The translations under genes and the position numbers were made by a program. Positions 784 through 54,008 of a stretch of 62,885 nt of DNA are shown piece after piece. Numbering within the stretch: the first letter of the stretch is position 1; each line of letters opens with the position of its first letter. The stretch is taken from assembly GCA_022695795.1 (NCBI GenBank), contig MU404213.1, forward strand, positions 1 to 62,885. Direction: 5' to 3'. This DNA is from Biscogniauxia marginata. Taxonomy: Eukaryota > Ascomycota > Sordariomycetes > Xylariales > Xylariaceae. Under the pieces are notes generated by a model, which worked only from the letters and a program-made list of their open reading frames with translations, made no database searches and was not told the DNA's origin.

Positions 784-1203
784 ACGTGTCTCATAAGCGA
801 GTGGGCCACTTGATTTCCCACACAAAATCGACTTTTTCAAAAACTTACAACTTTGCGCGTAAAAATCGTAAAAATCTCGGACCTTTTTTTAAATTATATA
901 ATTATAAGGTTTAATTAAAAGTAAAATCGAAAAAAATAAAAGTGAGATATATAAAGAAATACGTAAAAAGGACCGTGCGTTTTATTTTGATTTTAGTTTT
1001 TACGCGTTTTCTTTTCGCGTCTTTTGAAATTATTTTTTTTCGATTTTACTTTTAATTAAACCTTATAATTATATAATTAAAAAAAAGGTCCGAGATTTTT
1101 ACGATTTTTATAAGTAAAGTTATGAATTTTCGAAAAAGTCGATTTTATATAGGAAACCATTTCGTTCGCGAGCTTGTTTCGTCCACTCCCTTGTGTGGTA
1201 CAT
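784..1203. mobile_element. Fold-back (MITE-like) element with TA flanks, copy 1
   Basis: The two halves are inverted copies of one another. The arm starting near 829 (AAATCGACTTTTTC...) recurs reverse-complemented up to about 1147, with the shared core AATCTCGGACC / GGTCCGAGATT. The ends read ACGTGTCTCATAAG... on the left and ...GGTACAT on the right, flanked by TA at 782-783 and 1204-1205. This fits a Tc1/mariner-type TA target duplication. No coding capacity is seen. Related copies lie at 50647-50989 and about 54618-54946. Confidence 0.6.
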
Positions 1204-45373: not shown

Positions 45374-48300
45374 ATGGCGAAGACAAACGGGTCTTACGAC
45401 ACCGATGGCACTCGGACACACTCGAACAGCTTGACAACAACGGGCAAGGGGTTACATTCACCTTCAGGGCCTGTGGTCAAAGAGAACCCAGACCCTCAAC
45501 CAGAAGCAGATCGTGAGGGAGTCAAGAAAGCGTTTGCCCAATTCGGGCAATACATGCATACCTCACGACGCCCCGTTTCTACCCAGCATGGCGAAGCATC
45601 GTACAGCATAATTATGCAAAAGTCCGGTTTGAAGAAAGACTTGAAGTATATTGGCAAGAACGGTTAGATGAGTAATTATACTTGCTAAGAATTATATGTG
45701 CTCACTAGATAAACAGATGTGAAAACAGTCCTGGCGCTGGTAAAAGCAAAGTTGAAGGGGGAGCAGCTTGTGGATGACAAGACTATGATCATGGAACGGA
45801 TCATACAGCTAGTAGCAGGACTCCCTCACAGCTCGAAACGCAGAGAGGAGCTTACCAACAACTTTCTAAACGAGTTATGGTACACCCTAGACCATCCTCC
45901 GCTCCTCTACTTGGGGGAGAAACACCAATACCGAATGGCGGACGGGTCCTGGAACAATCCAATGAATCCTCAACTTGGGGCAGCTGGTTCGACGTATGCA
46001 CGAAGTTGCCGTCCAGGGATTGTCCCCCTCGGAGCGATGCCGGATCCGGGTCTCATATTCGATTCCGTAATGAAACGAACAAAATATAAAAAGCACCCAA
46101 ACAATGTTTCTTCAGTTCTCTGGTACTGGGCAACCATCATCATCCATGACCTTTTCTGGACCGACTATACTGATATGACCAAGACGAAGACGTCCTCATA
46201 TTTGGACCTCTCTCCACTTTACGGCAGCAACCAGGAGATGCAAGATTCGGTGCGTACATTCGAGGACGGCATGATGAAACCTGATACGTTCGCGGACAAG
46301 CGACTCCTAGGTACGCCACCAGGGGTCGGTGTTATCCTGATCATGTTCAACCGATTCCATAACTACGTCGCTGCAAACCTTGCTGCCATCAATGAAGGTG
46401 GTCGTTTTTCCCCGCCCTCTCATGGATTGGACGAAGAGAGGAAGGCCGCAGCCTGGAAGAAGTATGATAACGACCTCTTCCAGACAGCACGACTGGTCAC
46501 TTCGGGCTTGTACATCAACATCACCCTCGTGGACTATGTGCGAAATATCGTTAATCTGAACCGATCAAACACAACCTGGACCCTCGACCCTCGACAAGAA
46601 ATGGGCAAGGATGCGGGAACCATGACTGGGTCTGAGCGTGGTACCGGCAGTATGGTCTCTGCAGAGTTCAATCTATGTTATAGGTAAGCTGGCCTGGATT
46701 TATTAGTTACGCGTCCGGTGACTAACAAGATTGCAGATGGCACTCTTGCATCTCAGCCAAGGATGAGCAGTGGGTGCAGGATTCTTACCGTGAATTATTC
46801 GGCAAGGACCCGCTAGACTTAACGACTCAGGACATGTTGAAGGGCTTCGTCAAGTTTGAACGAAGTGTTCCCGAAGACCCTGCTGAGCGCGTATTCGGCG
46901 GCTTCAAGCGCAATTCTGACGGGAAGTTCAACGATGATGATCTTGTCGGCTGCATTTCGGATGCCATTGAAGATTGTGCTGGAGCGTTTGGCGGCCGTAA
47001 TGTACCGCAAGCGATGAAGCCCGTCGAGATATTGGGTATACTTCAAGGAAGAAGGTGGAACGTTGCAGGCTTGAACGAGTTCCGTAAGCACTTCGGACTC
47101 AAACCGTATGAGAAATTCGAAGATATCAATTCAGACCCGGAGATTGCCGACTCTCTCAGAAATCTCTACGAACATCCAGATTTTGTAGAGTTGTATCCCG
47201 GCCTTGTTGCGGAAGAAGCAAAGGAGCCAATGGTTCCCGGCGTGGGTATTGCTGTAAGTCGTTCAGGGCAATCACTTATACAATTTGCCGACCAATCTCT
47301 GATATTTCCTAGCCGACATATACGATCTCGCGCGTTATCCTTTCTGACGCGGTCTGTTTAACCCGTGGCGATCGTTTCTACACCACTGATTACAGCCCGC
47401 GATTCCTCACGTCTTGGGGTTATAACGAAGTAGCGTATGACCTGAATCTGAACCAAGGTTGTGTCTTCTATAAACTATTCATTCGGGCTTTTCCAAACCA
47501 CTTCAAAGCTGATTCAGCCTATGCGCACTACCCTATGTGCGGTATGTCGCTTATCACTTTCTGTAATATTGTATTAACTTGGCTAATACGTGATTTAGTT
47601 CCGAGCGAGACCAAAAATATACTGACAAGCTTGGGCCGGGTCGAACACTTCAACTTCGAACGCCCGTCTTTCATCCCACAGCGCATTCATGTCACTACGT
47701 ACGGTGCAGCGCAATACATACTCGAGAACCAGTCTAAATACAAAGCCGTATGGCACGAAGGTTTGTCGCGGCTGATGAGTGCTGGCGGTAGCCGTTCCAT
47801 GCTTTCCGGTGACACTTCCCTCCATGCCAATCGGCAAAAGGAGCTATACAGTGACAACTGGGACAGCCATATCAAGACGTTCTACTCACAGACCACTGGC
47901 CATCTCATACGAGAAAAGACGTTCAAGCTCGCGGGACAGAATTTTATTGATATTAGTAAGCTAATTTTTGGAGTTCTTTACTGCCCCTTGTAGCCTATCT
48001 CATGAGTAAAACATGCCTGTTCTGGCTTGTTACATGCGTTTTTGCTCTGGAGACATGTTTCACGGGTTGAAAACAGTCTAAATGTAGCAATTACTGACTC
48101 CTGTTTCTGCAGTCCGAGACGTAGGCAACCTTGTGCCCGTTCACTTCGCCTCACGAGTGTTCAACTTGCCGCTCAAAACAAATGATAATCCGAAAGGTGT
48201 ATACAGCGAGGACGAGCTGTATATGGTCCTAGCCATAATATTTGTTTGCATTTTCTTAGACATTGACCCTGTCAAGTCATTCCCACAAAGGCAGGCCGCG

Positions 48301-49258
48301 AAGACTGTCGCAGTCCAACTAGGCGAGCTCATCGAGGCGAATGTCAAGCTCACAACCGGGTTCAGTATTGGTGTGATTTTTGCCTCGAGACCTAAGAAGG
48401 ATGATATATTGGCGTCGTACGGAACCAACTTGATCAAGGGTTTGTCCAAGGTTGGTTTGAATAACTACGATATCGCATGGGGCCATGTGTTACCGACCGC
48501 ATGCTCCTCGGTGCCGAATATCGCGCAAATAGTATGTTGCGCTTTTCTGATACGATTCACTAATGGAGTATTGATGTTGTTTTCTACACACAGTTCGCTC
48601 AAGCGGTCGATTACTACCTCAGCCCTAAAGGATCTAAATATGTCCTAGAATTGCACCGCACTGCCAATCTCCCGTCGTCGGATGAGACAGATTCCTTGCT
48701 GCTAGGATACTGCATGGAAGGCATTCGACTGGGCGGGATGTCTGGATTGTGCCGCGAATCATCTATCGACGATACAATTAGAGAGGACGATGGCCGTGAA
48801 ATCCCTGTCAAGGCTAAGGACCGGTTGTTCGTTAGCTTTGTAAGTGATCCCCCCTTTCCTCCCCTCTCCTTCTCTCCTCTGTAGTCCCATTCCTGCATGT
48901 CCAGCTACGATTCACTCTTATGGATCAACATTCTGATTGTGGCCTTGCTTAGGTGGACGCTGCCACGGACGCGAAGCATTTCCCTACTCCCGAGGAGGTA
49001 AATCCGCGTCGTCCTTTGAATGCATATATTCATTCTAGTCTTGGCCCTCATGCCTGTTTCGGACAGAACGTCGCCCAGGTCGGGTTGACAGAAATGTTCC
49101 GATCTGTGTTCAAGCTAAAGAACGTCCGGCGAGCCCCTGGCCCTCAGGGTGAGCTGAAAAAGGTTCCGCGCCCTGGTGGGTTCTCTGTATACATGAGGGA
49201 TGATAGAGGGGCATTCTTCCCTTTCCCGTGTACAATGAAGATCTGTTATGATGACTGA
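45374..49258 (+). CDS. ppoA: Psi-factor-producing fatty-acid oxygenase (Ppo; dioxygenase-P450 fusion)
   Basis: Model: exons 45374-45662, 45717-46683, 46737-47253, 47313-47541, 47599-47955, 48113-48531, 48594-48839 and 48953-49258; 1109 aa, all phases consistent. The N-terminal heme dioxygenase domain has distal-side His240 in IIIHDLFW, SSYLDLSPLYG, and Tyr418/His421 in YRWH (catalytic Tyr and proximal His). The C-terminal P450 domain has ExxR as E968-GI-R971 and the heme-thiolate Cys1043 in GPHACFGQ. Both centres are intact, unlike PpoC types that lack the P450 Cys, so a bifunctional 8-dioxygenase plus hydroperoxide isomerase (PpoA or linoleate diol synthase) is expected. It makes oxylipins that control sporulation and secondary metabolism. 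The first donor (GTTAGA) is weak. Intron 5 is the 157-nt sequence shared with the MFS gene. Confidence 0.93.
47956..48112 (+). other. Introner-like intron, copy A (intron 5 of ppo)
   Basis: A 157-nt intron from GTAAGC to TGCAG. Five of the other six ppo introns are 53-62 nt (intron 7 is 113 nt). By hand alignment it matches 51977-52133, intron 1 of the MFS gene, at about 135 of 158 columns, with one single-base gap in each copy. Similarity runs from the donor GT to the acceptor AG and stops there; the flanking exons are unrelated. It interrupts a codon after base 1 (A|TC). Confidence 0.85.
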
Positions 49259-49529
49259 AGCTAGTCTCTATGCGGATATCATTTCGCATCTTTTGTAGAC
49301 GCGATGAAAAGTGAGAGCTATTTAGGCATACATGGTGTAGTTTATAAAAATTGGTAATTAAGTTCAAGATAATGTTGACTGGGGATCGTGTACGGGCTGA
49401 CAAGGGGGTCGAGGTATGGATGCTATATTTGGGGTTGGTTTAAGGAACTGAGAATGATCGAAGAATACGGTTGACTATAGAGGCGAAATGGAAGAAACGA
49501 TTTATGGGACACGGTATTCATTAAAACAG
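49259..49529. other. 3' flank of the ppo gene
   Basis: Ordinary sequence leading into the AT block. It holds only the presumptive 3' UTR. Confidence 0.4.
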
Positions 49530-51470
49530 CTTAATAGCCATAATATATATACTTCACAAGTAAAAAATCATAATATAAAATATTATGTGTTTAATTACTT
49601 AAGACTTCTTTATTAATATTATTTGATTTTATATAATGTATTATATAAATAAATAAGTTATATAAGTAAATAAACTAGTTTTTATAACTTTTATAATTTT
49701 AATTATTATATAAATAAATAAGCTATATAAACAAGTAAACTAGTTTTTATAATTTTCGTAATTTTAATTATTAAAAACCATTTATATAATATTAAAATTA
49801 ATTTTTTTAAGTTTTATACTTTAAAACCTAAGTACCTTTTTTATATTAAATATTTAATTTTTTAATGTGTAATTTAGATTAATTAATTTATATATAATAA
49901 TATATTTATTATTATTTTTAAAACGTGTAAAATTATATTTATATTTTTAAAAATTTTTAAAATATATTAATTTATTTATTTTAAAACTTAATAATGTTAA
50001 TAAAAACTCGAATAATTTATACGGTTAAATATAAATAATATTAATTTCATACCCCGATAAAAATTATTATAAACGCGTTTAAATAAATAATTAATTAATT
50101 AAAAGTTTTTATATAAAGATTGAAATATATATTAAAATTAATTAAAATTAATATATAAAATTTTAATAAAATAAAGTTTATATTTAAAATATTTAATTAA
50201 ATTAATATAATAATAATAATATAAAACAATATAAACGACTTTATTAAATTTAATAAAAATTAATTAAGTTATTAATATTAATAATTTTATTATATTATTA
50301 TTTATTTTTATAATATTATAATAATTTATTATTATTAAAAAATAAATTTAAAATATTATATAAAAATTAAATAATAAATATATTTAATATGAAATTTATA
50401 AAATATTTTAATATTTATATTAAAAATTAAATATAAAGTTTTAAACGTTTATAATATAAGACGATAAGAGGTATAACGTTATATAAGGATTAGGTTTATA
50501 AAAGAGAGTTTTAACAAGGCTTTAAAAGTTAAGCTCTTTATTATTAATATAACACCTTCTTTCACACCTTTATATATTTATATTAATTTATTAATTTTAA
50601 ATAATTATAAAAATAATTATAAAAAACTTAATATATTTATGTTTTAACGTGTCTCATAAGTGAGTAAGCCACACAAGCGAGTGGGCCACTTAATTTCCCA
50701 TATAAAATCGACTTTTTCAAAAATGCATAACTTTACACGTAAAAATCGTAAAAATCTCGGACCTTTTTCATTAATTATATAATTATACGGTTTAATTAAA
50801 ACTAAAATCGAAAAATAAAAATAAAAGTGAAATATATAAAGAAATACGTAAAAGGTCCGTGTGTTTTGTTTTAATTTTAGTTTTAATTAAACCGTATAAT
50901 TATATAATTAATGAAAAAGGTCCGAGATTTTTACGATTTTTACGTGTAAAGTTATGCATTTTTGAAAAACTTAATTTTATATAATATGTTAATATTTTAA
51001 TTAATTTTATAAAACGTTAAATTAAAAATATAAAGATAAAACTTTTATAATTATAATTTATAAAATAAATTATAAGGTATTTAAAAATTATAACTTTATT
51101 AATAAATATATAATTAATTATATTTCTTATAACTTAATTTTGATATTTAAAAAATATATATAATAAGTTAATAATATAAAGATTCCTCGAGTTTTCACGT
51201 TTTAAATCTTATTATAAACCATGATAATATTAATAATTTATATATATTATTATAATTTTAATTAATTAATTTAAAATGTTTTAAATTTTTAATTAAATTA
51301 TATATATTAAAAATGATTTTATTTATATAATATATTATTAAAAGTTTAATTTATATATTTTTAATCAATTAAATAATTAATAATATTAAAAACAATAAAG
51401 GTATATAAAACTATATAAGGTTTTTTACCTGTTAATTAAATATTTTAATCTTTAAAGAGGTGTTATAAAT
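49530..51470. repeat. RIP-like AT-rich repeat block
   Basis: Stop-saturated A/T sequence between the ppo and MFS genes. From about 49636 (ATGTATTATATAAATAAATAAG, preceded by TA) it carries a decayed left end of the same long-inverted-repeat family seen at 1611 and 54949. The end is partly duplicated in tandem near 49700. A fold-back element occupies 50647-50989. No gene survives. Confidence 0.8.
50647..50989. mobile_element. Fold-back (MITE-like) element with perfect 96-bp arms, copy 2
   Basis: The arms at 50713-50808 and 50874-50969 are perfectly complementary by eye over 96 bp, separated by 65 bp. The left end ACGTGTCTCATAAG matches copy 1 at 784. TA flanks both ends (50645-50646 and 50990-50991), though the right terminus is short and decayed. 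No coding capacity. The transcript or single strand would form a long hairpin. Confidence 0.65.
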
Positions 51471-51881
51471 CATTTTGAAAGGCGGGCAAGTTGCATTCGA
51501 CGCGGCTTATCATGCATAATAATGTACGGGCTATGTCGCCTTAGGTACTTAGACATGCACGTCCACAGTCTAACCTACGTACCTCTTATGTGAATGAGTG
51601 ACGATCGGAGCGTTGCCCGATCATGCCCTAAAAAGTCGGCCGTCTCGGCTAACAATCGATTTGCTTATTAGGCTGGAGTCGGAAGGTCTCTTTGCAGATT
51701 GCAGCTAGAACCTGTTCATTTTATTTGGTAAAAACTTCATATTTTGCCTCCGAATACTCCGCCGTTAAACGTTGATCATCTGCTAATTGCCCTTCTGCGT
51801 AACCCCTTTTTCCCTTCTAATTCCTTGACTTGAATTTCGAACCCCTCGTATGAGTTTCGCTTTTCTGCATTCCCATAAGTG
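51471..51881 (+). promoter_or_regulatory. Promoter region of the MFS gene
   Basis: About 410 bp of normal composition between the AT block and the start codon at 51882. It is the only upstream space the gene has. No further feature is seen. Confidence 0.5.
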
Positions 51882-54008
51882 ATGCCGGCAGACGAGACGA
51901 CGCCGTTGCTTCGCAATGGAGCTTCCGACCCTTCTAAAGCCACGAAGGCCGCGAACACGGCCTTTGGGCCGGCTAAGTGAGCTAATTTTGGAGTTCTTTA
52001 TTGCCCCTTGTAGCCCGTCTCATGAGTAAAACATGCCTATTCTGGCTTGTTATATGAGTTTTTACTCCCGAGACATTGTTTCATGGGTTAAAAGCAGTCT
52101 AAATATAGCAATTACTGAGTATTACTTCTATAGTCGCATACTCCTCGCCGGGTTGTTGATGTCCTTCACGTTGGGCATTACTCAAGTTCCGTAAGCGTCG
52201 ATGAGTCTATCTCGGACGAGACTCTGGAAGACTGACGGGAAACCCCAGTATTATCTACGTCTTCCGTCTCATGGAATGTGACATATTTTGGAGCCATCAT
52301 GATCCGTTCCAGGGTACCGGAGATCGCTGTCATCGCTGGGAGATTAACGCAGGGACAGCCAGGCAAGTGTCAATTGTCGGGATGTCGACATCTTTCAGTG
52401 GTGTCCTTAACTTGTTTATATGTGGCTATTTCATCAAGATATGGGGGCCGCGATGGGCATTCGTGTCACAGACCGCACTATTAGGGCTGAGGGTCTCAAC
52501 CCAGATTTTAGGTGTCACCATTGGAGGTCGTGCTGGTGAGATAATATTCCAGGCACTACAAGCCATTGGCATAATCGGGGGCCCTCGAGGGTACCAGTGA
52601 GTTGTTTCCGCATGTTCATTCACACCGCCGCTTCTACTAATGTGAGTTAGGTTAGTGTTGAACACAGCAGTCTCTGAACTTGTGGCAGCCAAGGATCGTA
52701 CTGCGGTATTTGGTCGGTTACAAGGCTCTATAATGCTTGGTACAGCATTCGGATACCTCTGTGGGTGATCTTGGCCTTACAAATACCAGAACTCATGACC
52801 TGACAATACCATAGTGGGCGGTGTCCTTGGTGATGTCTATAACATCAGGCGTCCCTTCGAGATAGCATTCTTCCTATACGTCGTCTCTACCATATATGGG
52901 GCATTATTCATACCTACGACCACTGGCAACGAAAGCTCTGAACAGAAGCGAGCAGGCCAGGGTATCAGTAGCTTCTTCGCACCCATCAAGGTGATTGTAC
53001 CCCACAAATATCGCCTAGAATCCGGCAAAATCATTGAGAATTATGGCCTGATATTCCTTGCTATGGGAATATTTCTTGGTGTGGTAAGCTATTATTGCCT
53101 CGCAATTCAGCTCTGTTGTTCCCATCTCACTTTGGCCAGTTCGCGTCTGGATACGCACCGATCCTTCTTCAGATGTACGCAACCTCGGAATTCGACTTCG
53201 GAACAGCCGAGAATGGCTACCTCATGTTTGGAAACTCTCTAATCCGCGGTCTTTTCTTGCTCCTATTGTTCCCCAAAATCATCTCGGTAGGACGAGATTG
53301 GTTTGCTGGAACTACCGGAGATGAGTCGACAAAACATTCACCTGAGAGCAACATCCCGACACACCCCGGAGATTTTGAAGCAGCTGAAGGCGACGAAGTT
53401 CCTAATGAGCCAAATCGGGTTCCTGACCAAGATGAAGAGGACTCTGGTACTAGTTTTGATTTGTTTTTTGTCAGGTGGAGTCTTGTCATAGACTCGCTCG
53501 TGACTTTCTTCGCGGCATTCTCCTCGAATGGGTGGCAGGTTTATCTGGGTAAGACACCCCTTACTTATAATCACAGATAACTGTAATAAACCTGACCTAT
53601 TAAACTTCAGCCGGCTTTCTGCTCCCATTTGCATCAGGGTCGGCACCTGCTGCTAAGGGAGTTATGACGGAGATGTGTCCGCCACACCAACGACCCGACG
53701 CGATCAGTGCCATCACGCTTGTAGAAAGCACAGCAACCTTACTGACACAAGGACTTTTTGGTTTAATATTTGCAGCGTTTTCTGAAACTGACCAACCCAG
53801 CTTGACTTTCTTCTGCAACGCAGTAAGGCAAATAACATTCAAAACAGAATCAAAAGAACGATAACTAACATGGTATCAGGGGTTTGCCGTACTTGGTTTT
53901 GCAGTTTTGTTCCTAGCACGATCTCCACCAGACAACAGCAAAAGATTCGATGACAATGAATCAGAGTCTGTTACAGAAGTCGAGATTCATTCCTCATTTA
54001 ACGGATAA
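51882..54008 (+). CDS. Major facilitator superfamily transporter
   Basis: Model: exons 51882-51976, 52134-52190, 52249-52596, 52651-52760, 52815-53083, 53140-53548, 53611-53822 and 53880-54008; 542 aa with all phases joining and no internal stop. The donor of intron 4 is taken as GTGGGT so that the codon reads Leu in GYLLGG. The N-terminus has an acidic dileucine signal (ETTPLL), a common vacuolar/endosomal sorting motif. Conserved MFS blocks include LGITQVPIIYVFRLMECDIF, a loop with paired Cys, GPRWAF, KDRTAVFGRLQGS and GGVLGDVYNIRRP (motif-A-like). Twelve helices are expected. The substrate cannot be told. The 2.5-kb gene island lies between two RIP blocks, and the stop codon sits at the very edge of the right one. 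Confidence 0.87.
51977..52133 (+). other. Introner-like intron, copy B (intron 1 of the MFS gene)
   Basis: A 157-nt intron from GTGAGC to CTATAG, about 85% identical to ppo intron 5 (47956-48112) over its whole length. The other six introns of this gene are 54-62 nt. It splits a codon after base 2 (AA|T), a different phase from copy A. Many differences are transitions towards A or T in this copy, consistent with mild RIP because it lies between RIP blocks. Confidence 0.85.

Follow-up and report, generated by a model that had tools for sequence, protein, structure and literature searches.

How spliceosomal introns newly arise has long been an open question. Fungal introners offer one of its few live cases, in which it is still undecided whether spread occurs by reverse splicing or by DNA transposition. 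In the portions of the literature available to us, to which all citations here refer, the introner-like elements of the Dothideomycetes Fulvia fulva, Dothistroma septosporum and relatives are described as mutually similar spliceosomal introns that have spread to new positions (PMC4457414), inserted seamlessly and with a stable predicted structure (as cited in PMC8469720). A eukaryote-wide survey treats ascomycete introners as outliers without target-site duplications (TSDs) or terminal inverted repeats (TIRs), and describes those of Alternaria alternata as direct insertion (PMC9860276). Here we analyse a family of repeated introns in the wood-dwelling fungus Biscogniauxia marginata, two copies of which lie in the window studied, a stretch of 62,885 nucleotides (nt; contig MU404213.1, positions 1 to 62,885, assembly GCA_022695795.1). 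The literature listings that we searched showed no report of introners in Biscogniauxia.

The B. marginata family resembles Dothideomycete introners in being multiplied, seamless and stable in predicted structure (PMC8469720) and, like the surveyed ascomycete introners, it lacks a TSD. Whereas no TIRs are described for the surveyed ascomycete families (PMC9860276), the B. marginata introns carry an imperfect inverted repeat and have a narrow target motif. That motif is YR|T[C/G] (Y, pyrimidine; R, purine; the bar marks the insertion point), whereas Dothideomycete families are described as preferring AG/GY (as cited in PMC8469720), a comparison made by description only. The [D1,2] stwintrons of Xylariales come from the same order as B. 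marginata and in some cases from the same family, Xylariaceae (NCBI), and share with our introns internal symmetry, seamless coding-sense insertion and near-terminal inverted repeats (PMC8469720, PMC12403724). However, they are described as nested, starting with 5'-GGT and having an external donor split by the internal intron, whereas the B. marginata introns have an unsplit GTRAG donor, usually preceded by A. The 3' repeat of stwintrons is normally placed between branch point and acceptor, unlike the 3' arm in B. marginata, which ends at the branch motif, and the authors of the Hypoxylaceae study report that they found no pattern conserved in the exons on either side (PMC8469720), in contrast to the strong pattern found here. 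The B. marginata family is small enough for near-complete listing and has a sharp target motif that any mechanism must explain; scarless coding-sense insertion and the motif together give testable predictions.

A family of intron-precise copies

The two window copies lie on the forward strand as intron 5 of a gene for a Ppo-type fatty acid oxygenase (ppo; intron at 47956-48112, GTAAGC...CTGCAG) and intron 1 of a major facilitator superfamily (MFS) transporter gene (51977-52133, GTGAGC...CTATAG). An earlier note on this DNA had described them as homologous from end to end, with unrelated exons on either side and different codon phases, and all three statements stand. Both introns are 157 nt long with GT...AG ends, and they are 86.5% identical over their full length (88.8% over the first 143 aligned columns in BLAST), a similarity far beyond chance. 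The host genes, at 45374-49258 and 51882-54008 on the same strand, are unrelated, encoding proteins of different families: an oxygenase of Ppo / linoleate diol synthase type (heme peroxidase / P450-like) and the transporter. Outside both copies the window has only 11-base matches to introner sequence. The insertions are in phase 1 (ppo) and phase 2 (MFS). Among the seven introns of each gene (54, 53, 59, 57, 157, 62 and 113 nt in ppo; 157, 58, 54, 54, 56, 62 and 57 nt in the MFS gene), the shared one is the longest.

Judged by protein comparison, both segments are real introns, since related proteins run through each junction without a gap. The nearest database protein to the ppo product is P0001, an NCBI model named 'heme peroxidase [Biscogniauxia marginata]', which excises precisely 47956-48112; the junction ...NFIDI|IRDVGN... 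aligns gap-free with 18 database proteins, P0001 included. At the MFS junction, ...GPAN|RIL..., ten related proteins align gap-free, N and R being invariant. The 89 database matches included no B. marginata model of this gene, so splicing of this copy rests on the protein alignment. MFS proteins of B. mediterranea and Camillea tinctor are 80-86% identical to it over the N-terminal 170 residues. Elsewhere in ppo, an in-frame 63-nt GT..AG stretch (48197-48259) looks like an intron, yet is exon in related proteins and in the NCBI model.

The two genes share an intron because it belongs to a family of about seventy. The B. marginata genome holds at least 71 copies and one distant relative, a lower bound obtained with pattern searches that tolerate three mismatches. 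A whole-genome search with the ppo intron gave 69 candidates, of which the best 40 all had E <= 1.2e-36. More copies came from patterns of three segments (5', middle and 3') and from searches with divergent members; flanks were fetched and members placed by profile, and most measurements below cover 70 of the 71. A further search gave no new place among the best 40 of 70 candidates. An exact 33-nt core had no match in viral contigs.

Copies have a median length of 156 nt (range 126-186, n = 70), as against 53-113 nt for the 12 ordinary introns of the window genes; two short ones, on C7 (126 nt) and C30 (130 nt), have internal losses. The donor is GTRAG in 69/70 and GTTAG in the other, the acceptor is AG in all 70, and the ends resemble GTRAGYTAATTTTGG and TTACTGACTCC...CAG. 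In the copies examined, homology is confined between the splice sites, so that its ends are intron-precise. The family divides into two subfamilies with distinct donors (GTAAGC / GTGAGT) and distinct middle parts. The family thus consists almost certainly of introner-like elements. This is what the earlier note had proposed from two copies, along with their unusual length; the outcome that it named as refuting, an absence of further copies, was not what the genome search gave.

Nearly all copies sit in coding sequence and in its sense. After removal of the intron, the flanks hold an open reading frame (ORF) of at least 80 codons at 69/70 sites and of at least 200 codons at 53/70, compared with 43% and 17% of random window positions. 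In a leave-one-out codon-usage test of 65 sites, from which later-found copies were left out, the sense strand was favoured jointly at 61, and the identical sense frame was obtained on each side separately at 47. Among 20 peptides selected as recognisable, a Pfam domain spans the junction in 18; in L021 the domain falls short of the junction, and L020 has none. Hosts include transporters, amidases, glutamine synthetase, dihydroxy-acid dehydratase and polyketide synthases (PKSs). In the genes tested, protein comparison indicates that the copies are spliced out precisely.

Kinship, clustering and gain

Mean pairwise identity among the 70 copies is 83%, with the closest pair at 95.5%, and median divergence from the consensus is 9%. 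These values do not suggest a very recent burst, and the recent, perhaps local spread that had been supposed for the two window copies found no support. In none of six neighbouring pairs are the partners mutual closest kin: ranked by kinship among 69 copies, the window copies come 21st and 5th for one another, and partners in the remaining five pairs fall between 32nd and 68th.

Copies are nevertheless clustered. We observed six adjacent pairs within 7 kb where 0.7-1.7 were expected (P from 0/4000 simulations up to 0.006, by assumed genome size). Local hopping was considered and rejected, given partner ranks of 5th to 68th of 69; the low ranks make the clustering look like repeated use of neighbourhoods and not like local copying. 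Pairs or triples of introners 0.45-6.4 kb apart, not close in sequence, were noted at L047, L002, L070, L026/L087 and L019/L078/L079 (on C89, C193, C2, C5 and C3). One of these, L070 (C2:238654, E 5.9e-9), is the distant relative of the family and has another copy 545 bp downstream; used as a DNA query it retrieves only itself, and it is possibly an older introner.

Similar introns could also arise if old introns were homogenised by gene conversion or carried along in duplicated gene segments. Some copies do lie close together, and one long-range pair fits this expectation, C89:92191 having as its closest kin C89:114546, 22 kb off on the same contig (87.2%). But the tested host genes come from different families, nearby copies are generally no more alike than distant ones, and there are paralogous domains without an intron at the same site, so that we consider this explanation very improbable.

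The paralogues also bear on intron gain. A PKS acyltransferase peptide containing the L012 site is unbroken through that site in 20 of the 40 genomic matches listed. The L002 PKS match starts at its own introner (near query position 63-65), a point that 25 or more of the 40 listed rows cross unbroken. Together with the repeat nature of the family, these unbroken paralogues point to gain of the introns.

A sharp insertion target

Insertion sites follow a strong motif, YR|T[C/G], in which T at +1 is nearly invariant (67/70 measured, and 68/71 once the remaining copy, with its C|T site, is counted). C or G follows at +2 in 68/70. Position -1 is a purine in 62 copies (A in 48/70, G in 14), with C and T also occurring, and -2 is a pyrimidine in 59/70. 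R|T[C/G] is found at 59/70 sites, as against 6.5% of the surrounding coding-sequence positions (background from 64 copies). In the window, copy 1 occupies TA|TCC, with its halves at 47954-47955 and 48113-48115, and copy 2 occupies AA|TCG (51975-51976 and 52134-52136), where -2 departs from the preference for Y. Since one search pattern ended in T, we recounted without its ten unique copies and still obtained T at +1 in 57/60; the base also holds by phase (16/16, 41/42 and 10/12). Phase 1 is in excess (42/70 sites), which fits the target motif because the split codons are mostly ATC, ATG, GTC or GTG (34/37 in phase 1).

A codon-position-aware scan added T at -12 (36/70, z 5.3) and A at -17 (30/70, z 4.8), compared with a maximum of 3.5 in 688 control tests outside the core region. 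Both preferences are weaker in the smaller subfamily (8/21 and 6/21) than in the larger (28/49 and 24/49).

None of the 12 ordinary introns of the window genes lies in R|T[C/G], and only 5/12 have T at +1. The AG/GY preference of Dothideomycete families is absent, with G at +1 in 0/70. Because the motif is unlike the flanks of these ordinary introns, site choice probably does not come down to the exon recognition that the spliceosome normally performs; the motif would fit a sequence-reading enzyme or pairing with the intron. That the family picks its own insertion sites by sequence, as A(-17)...T(-12)...YR|T[C/G]C, unlike the exon signals of the host's ordinary introns, is a proposal we regard as unlikely.

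A TSD was not found: identical 3-mers flank 0/70 copies and identical 2-mers 3/70. A duplication hidden in the splice sites, as AG or GT common with the flanks, was tested and rejected, and intron and downstream exon share their first base in 0/70.

A defined target without duplication brings in a second explanation for the family, a non-autonomous DNA element (foldback/MITE-like, that is, resembling a miniature inverted-repeat transposable element, or Helitron-like) moved, with no target duplication, by an enzyme supplied from elsewhere. Its terminal splice signals would permit survival in genes, and selection would have purged other insertions. Helitrons insert between A and T without duplication, and the family comes close to this rule with its A at -1 in 48 copies and T at +1 in 67, departing from it where -1 is G (14), C or T; these bases and the -12/-17 preferences resemble the footprint of a DNA-binding protein. 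The weakening of the -12/-17 preferences in the smaller subfamily counts against a DNA element, and a TSD of the usual transposon kind is missing. Helitron termini, 5' TC and 3' CTRR, are absent, the ends being GT and AG. A search for Helitron_like_N (PF14214) gave no match, but gave none in control genomes either and is hence uninformative.

Fold and possible route of spread

Over nt 1-138 the main consensus matches its reverse complement as an imperfect inverted repeat; the 3' arm reaches as far as the branch motif and leaves the last 18 nt outside. By eye, the family consensus places the putative foldback at 47956-48094 in copy 1 and 51977-52115 in copy 2, both on the forward strand from the 5' splice site to the branch motif. 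That motif is ACTGAC at 48093-48098 in copy 1 (predicted branch A 48097), followed by a pyrimidine tract and then CAG, and ACTGAG at 52114-52119 in copy 2 (predicted branch A 52118). The overall consensus is predicted to fold at -41 kcal/mol (z -3.85), in answer to the fold check suggested in the earlier note, and the smaller subfamily consensus at -40.2. G1-U2 are predicted to pair with A-C of the branch motif ACTGAC, so that in the fold a few nucleotides would separate the branch A from the 5' splice site; complementarity of 5' splice site and branch is partly inherent in splice motifs.

Compensatory changes keeping the fold were sought and not found beyond shuffles. Copies with 16-22 substitutions fold better than simulated ones (-37.1 vs -33.5), and the fold does not decay with divergence (Spearman 0.07, p = 0.58). 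With covariation at the level of shuffles and a slight excess of folding, we claim the inverted repeat and do not claim its maintenance by selection.

The strong hairpin in the consensus would also suit the alternative raised in the earlier note, a functional small RNA gene duplicated inside introns. However, 47700-52400 has no Rfam match up to E = 1, homology among the examined copies goes no further than the splice sites, the unit being exactly the intron, and covariation is no better than in shuffles. We judge this explanation extremely unlikely.

The inverted repeat speaks for the DNA element, as does the survey in which introners outside ascomycetes mostly look, in the part available, like DNA elements (PMC9860276). 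Yet the repeat halts 18 nt before the 3' end, so that, TSD being absent as well, the copies do not have the form of a TIR/TSD transposon (MITE). All matches to the 5', middle and 3' patterns sit in copies of 126-186 nt, and no longer partner element was found among pattern matches with up to 3 mismatches. Nor was any intergenic or clearly antisense copy seen (2/65 sites unsettled), where selection could not have purged it. On balance we consider a DNA element rather unlikely.

Coding-sense, scarless insertion favours instead a route through spliced RNA or transcription. Taken as a whole, an RNA-mediated introner family of U2-type introns of about 156 nt, copied into many genes, is in our view a likely explanation; for RNA-mediated spread coupled to transcription in particular, our confidence is modest, a little better than even. 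In this RNA-based model, the moving unit would be the excised intron RNA, folded into a long hairpin with the 5' splice site beside the branch point. Introns almost three times as long as usual may be spliced more readily with such a hairpin, which perhaps also shields the excised RNA. Transcribed coding sequence would then receive this RNA in its sense strand: the RNA would reverse-splice into the transcript or the coding-strand DNA, and copying would follow.

A possible basis for the target motif is that the target YR pairs with UG beside the branch point, extending the hairpin (YR|GUAA with UUACUG); G-U wobble would allow for the R/Y degeneracy seen at -1 and -2. Suggestive only is the relation of -2 to branch position 140, with T:C at 6:1 where position 140 is A and 21:25 where it is G (p = 0.10). 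Such pairing leaves T at +1 and the -12/-17 preferences unexplained. By analogy, the proposed YR pairing may be likened to that of group II introns, whose targets are read by pairing. Group II introns insert seamlessly at a sequence-specific target, and to that extent the B. marginata introns appear to resemble them; unlike group II introns, they are at 156 nt too short for the core or a reverse transcriptase gene, and their splice signals (GT..branch..AG) are spliceosomal.

Several observations weigh against the RNA-mediated account or the evidence assembled for it. Plain reverse splicing is expected to prefer an AG|G exon context, and this preference is absent. The inverted repeat, clear in the consensus of the larger subfamily, spans only nt 11-126 when the smaller subfamily's consensus is aligned with its reverse complement. 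Covariation is no better than in shuffles (paired cells 90.4% vs 90.2%; 97/500 shuffles as high), and copies barely outfold a randomly mutated consensus (44/70; -35.4 vs -34.3, p = 0.052). On the antisense strand, too, 47/70 sites have an ORF reaching 80 codons, although just 8/70 have one reaching 200. Codon usage is antisense at 4/65 sites (L014, L017, L068 and L077); proteins show L017, which is the window MFS gene, and L077, where an acyltransferase domain spans the junction, to be in sense, which leaves L014 and L068 as possible antisense sites. Evidence for splicing consists of protein conservation, and that for gain of paralogues and the repeat family, with loss in the paralogues the other possibility. 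The excess of nearby pairs is unaccounted for by the proposed mechanism.

Other repeats were seen in passing. Self-comparison of the loci fetched by then and the window revealed no second introner family; it otherwise returned AT-rich window repeats, a tandem repeat in L011 and a 46-bp match between L021 and the window. A 138-bp repeat common to L011:542-676 and L022:2653-2789, about 90% identical and with an internal hairpin TAGGAGGGCGAAGCCCTCCTA, is MITE-like and not bounded by GT..AG. In the window itself, an AT-rich, apparently gene-free block separates the ppo and MFS genes (49300-51460). Near 50700-50984 this block contains an inverted repeat, perhaps a degraded repeat, that also matches L029, and L029 in turn matches window positions 824-1179.

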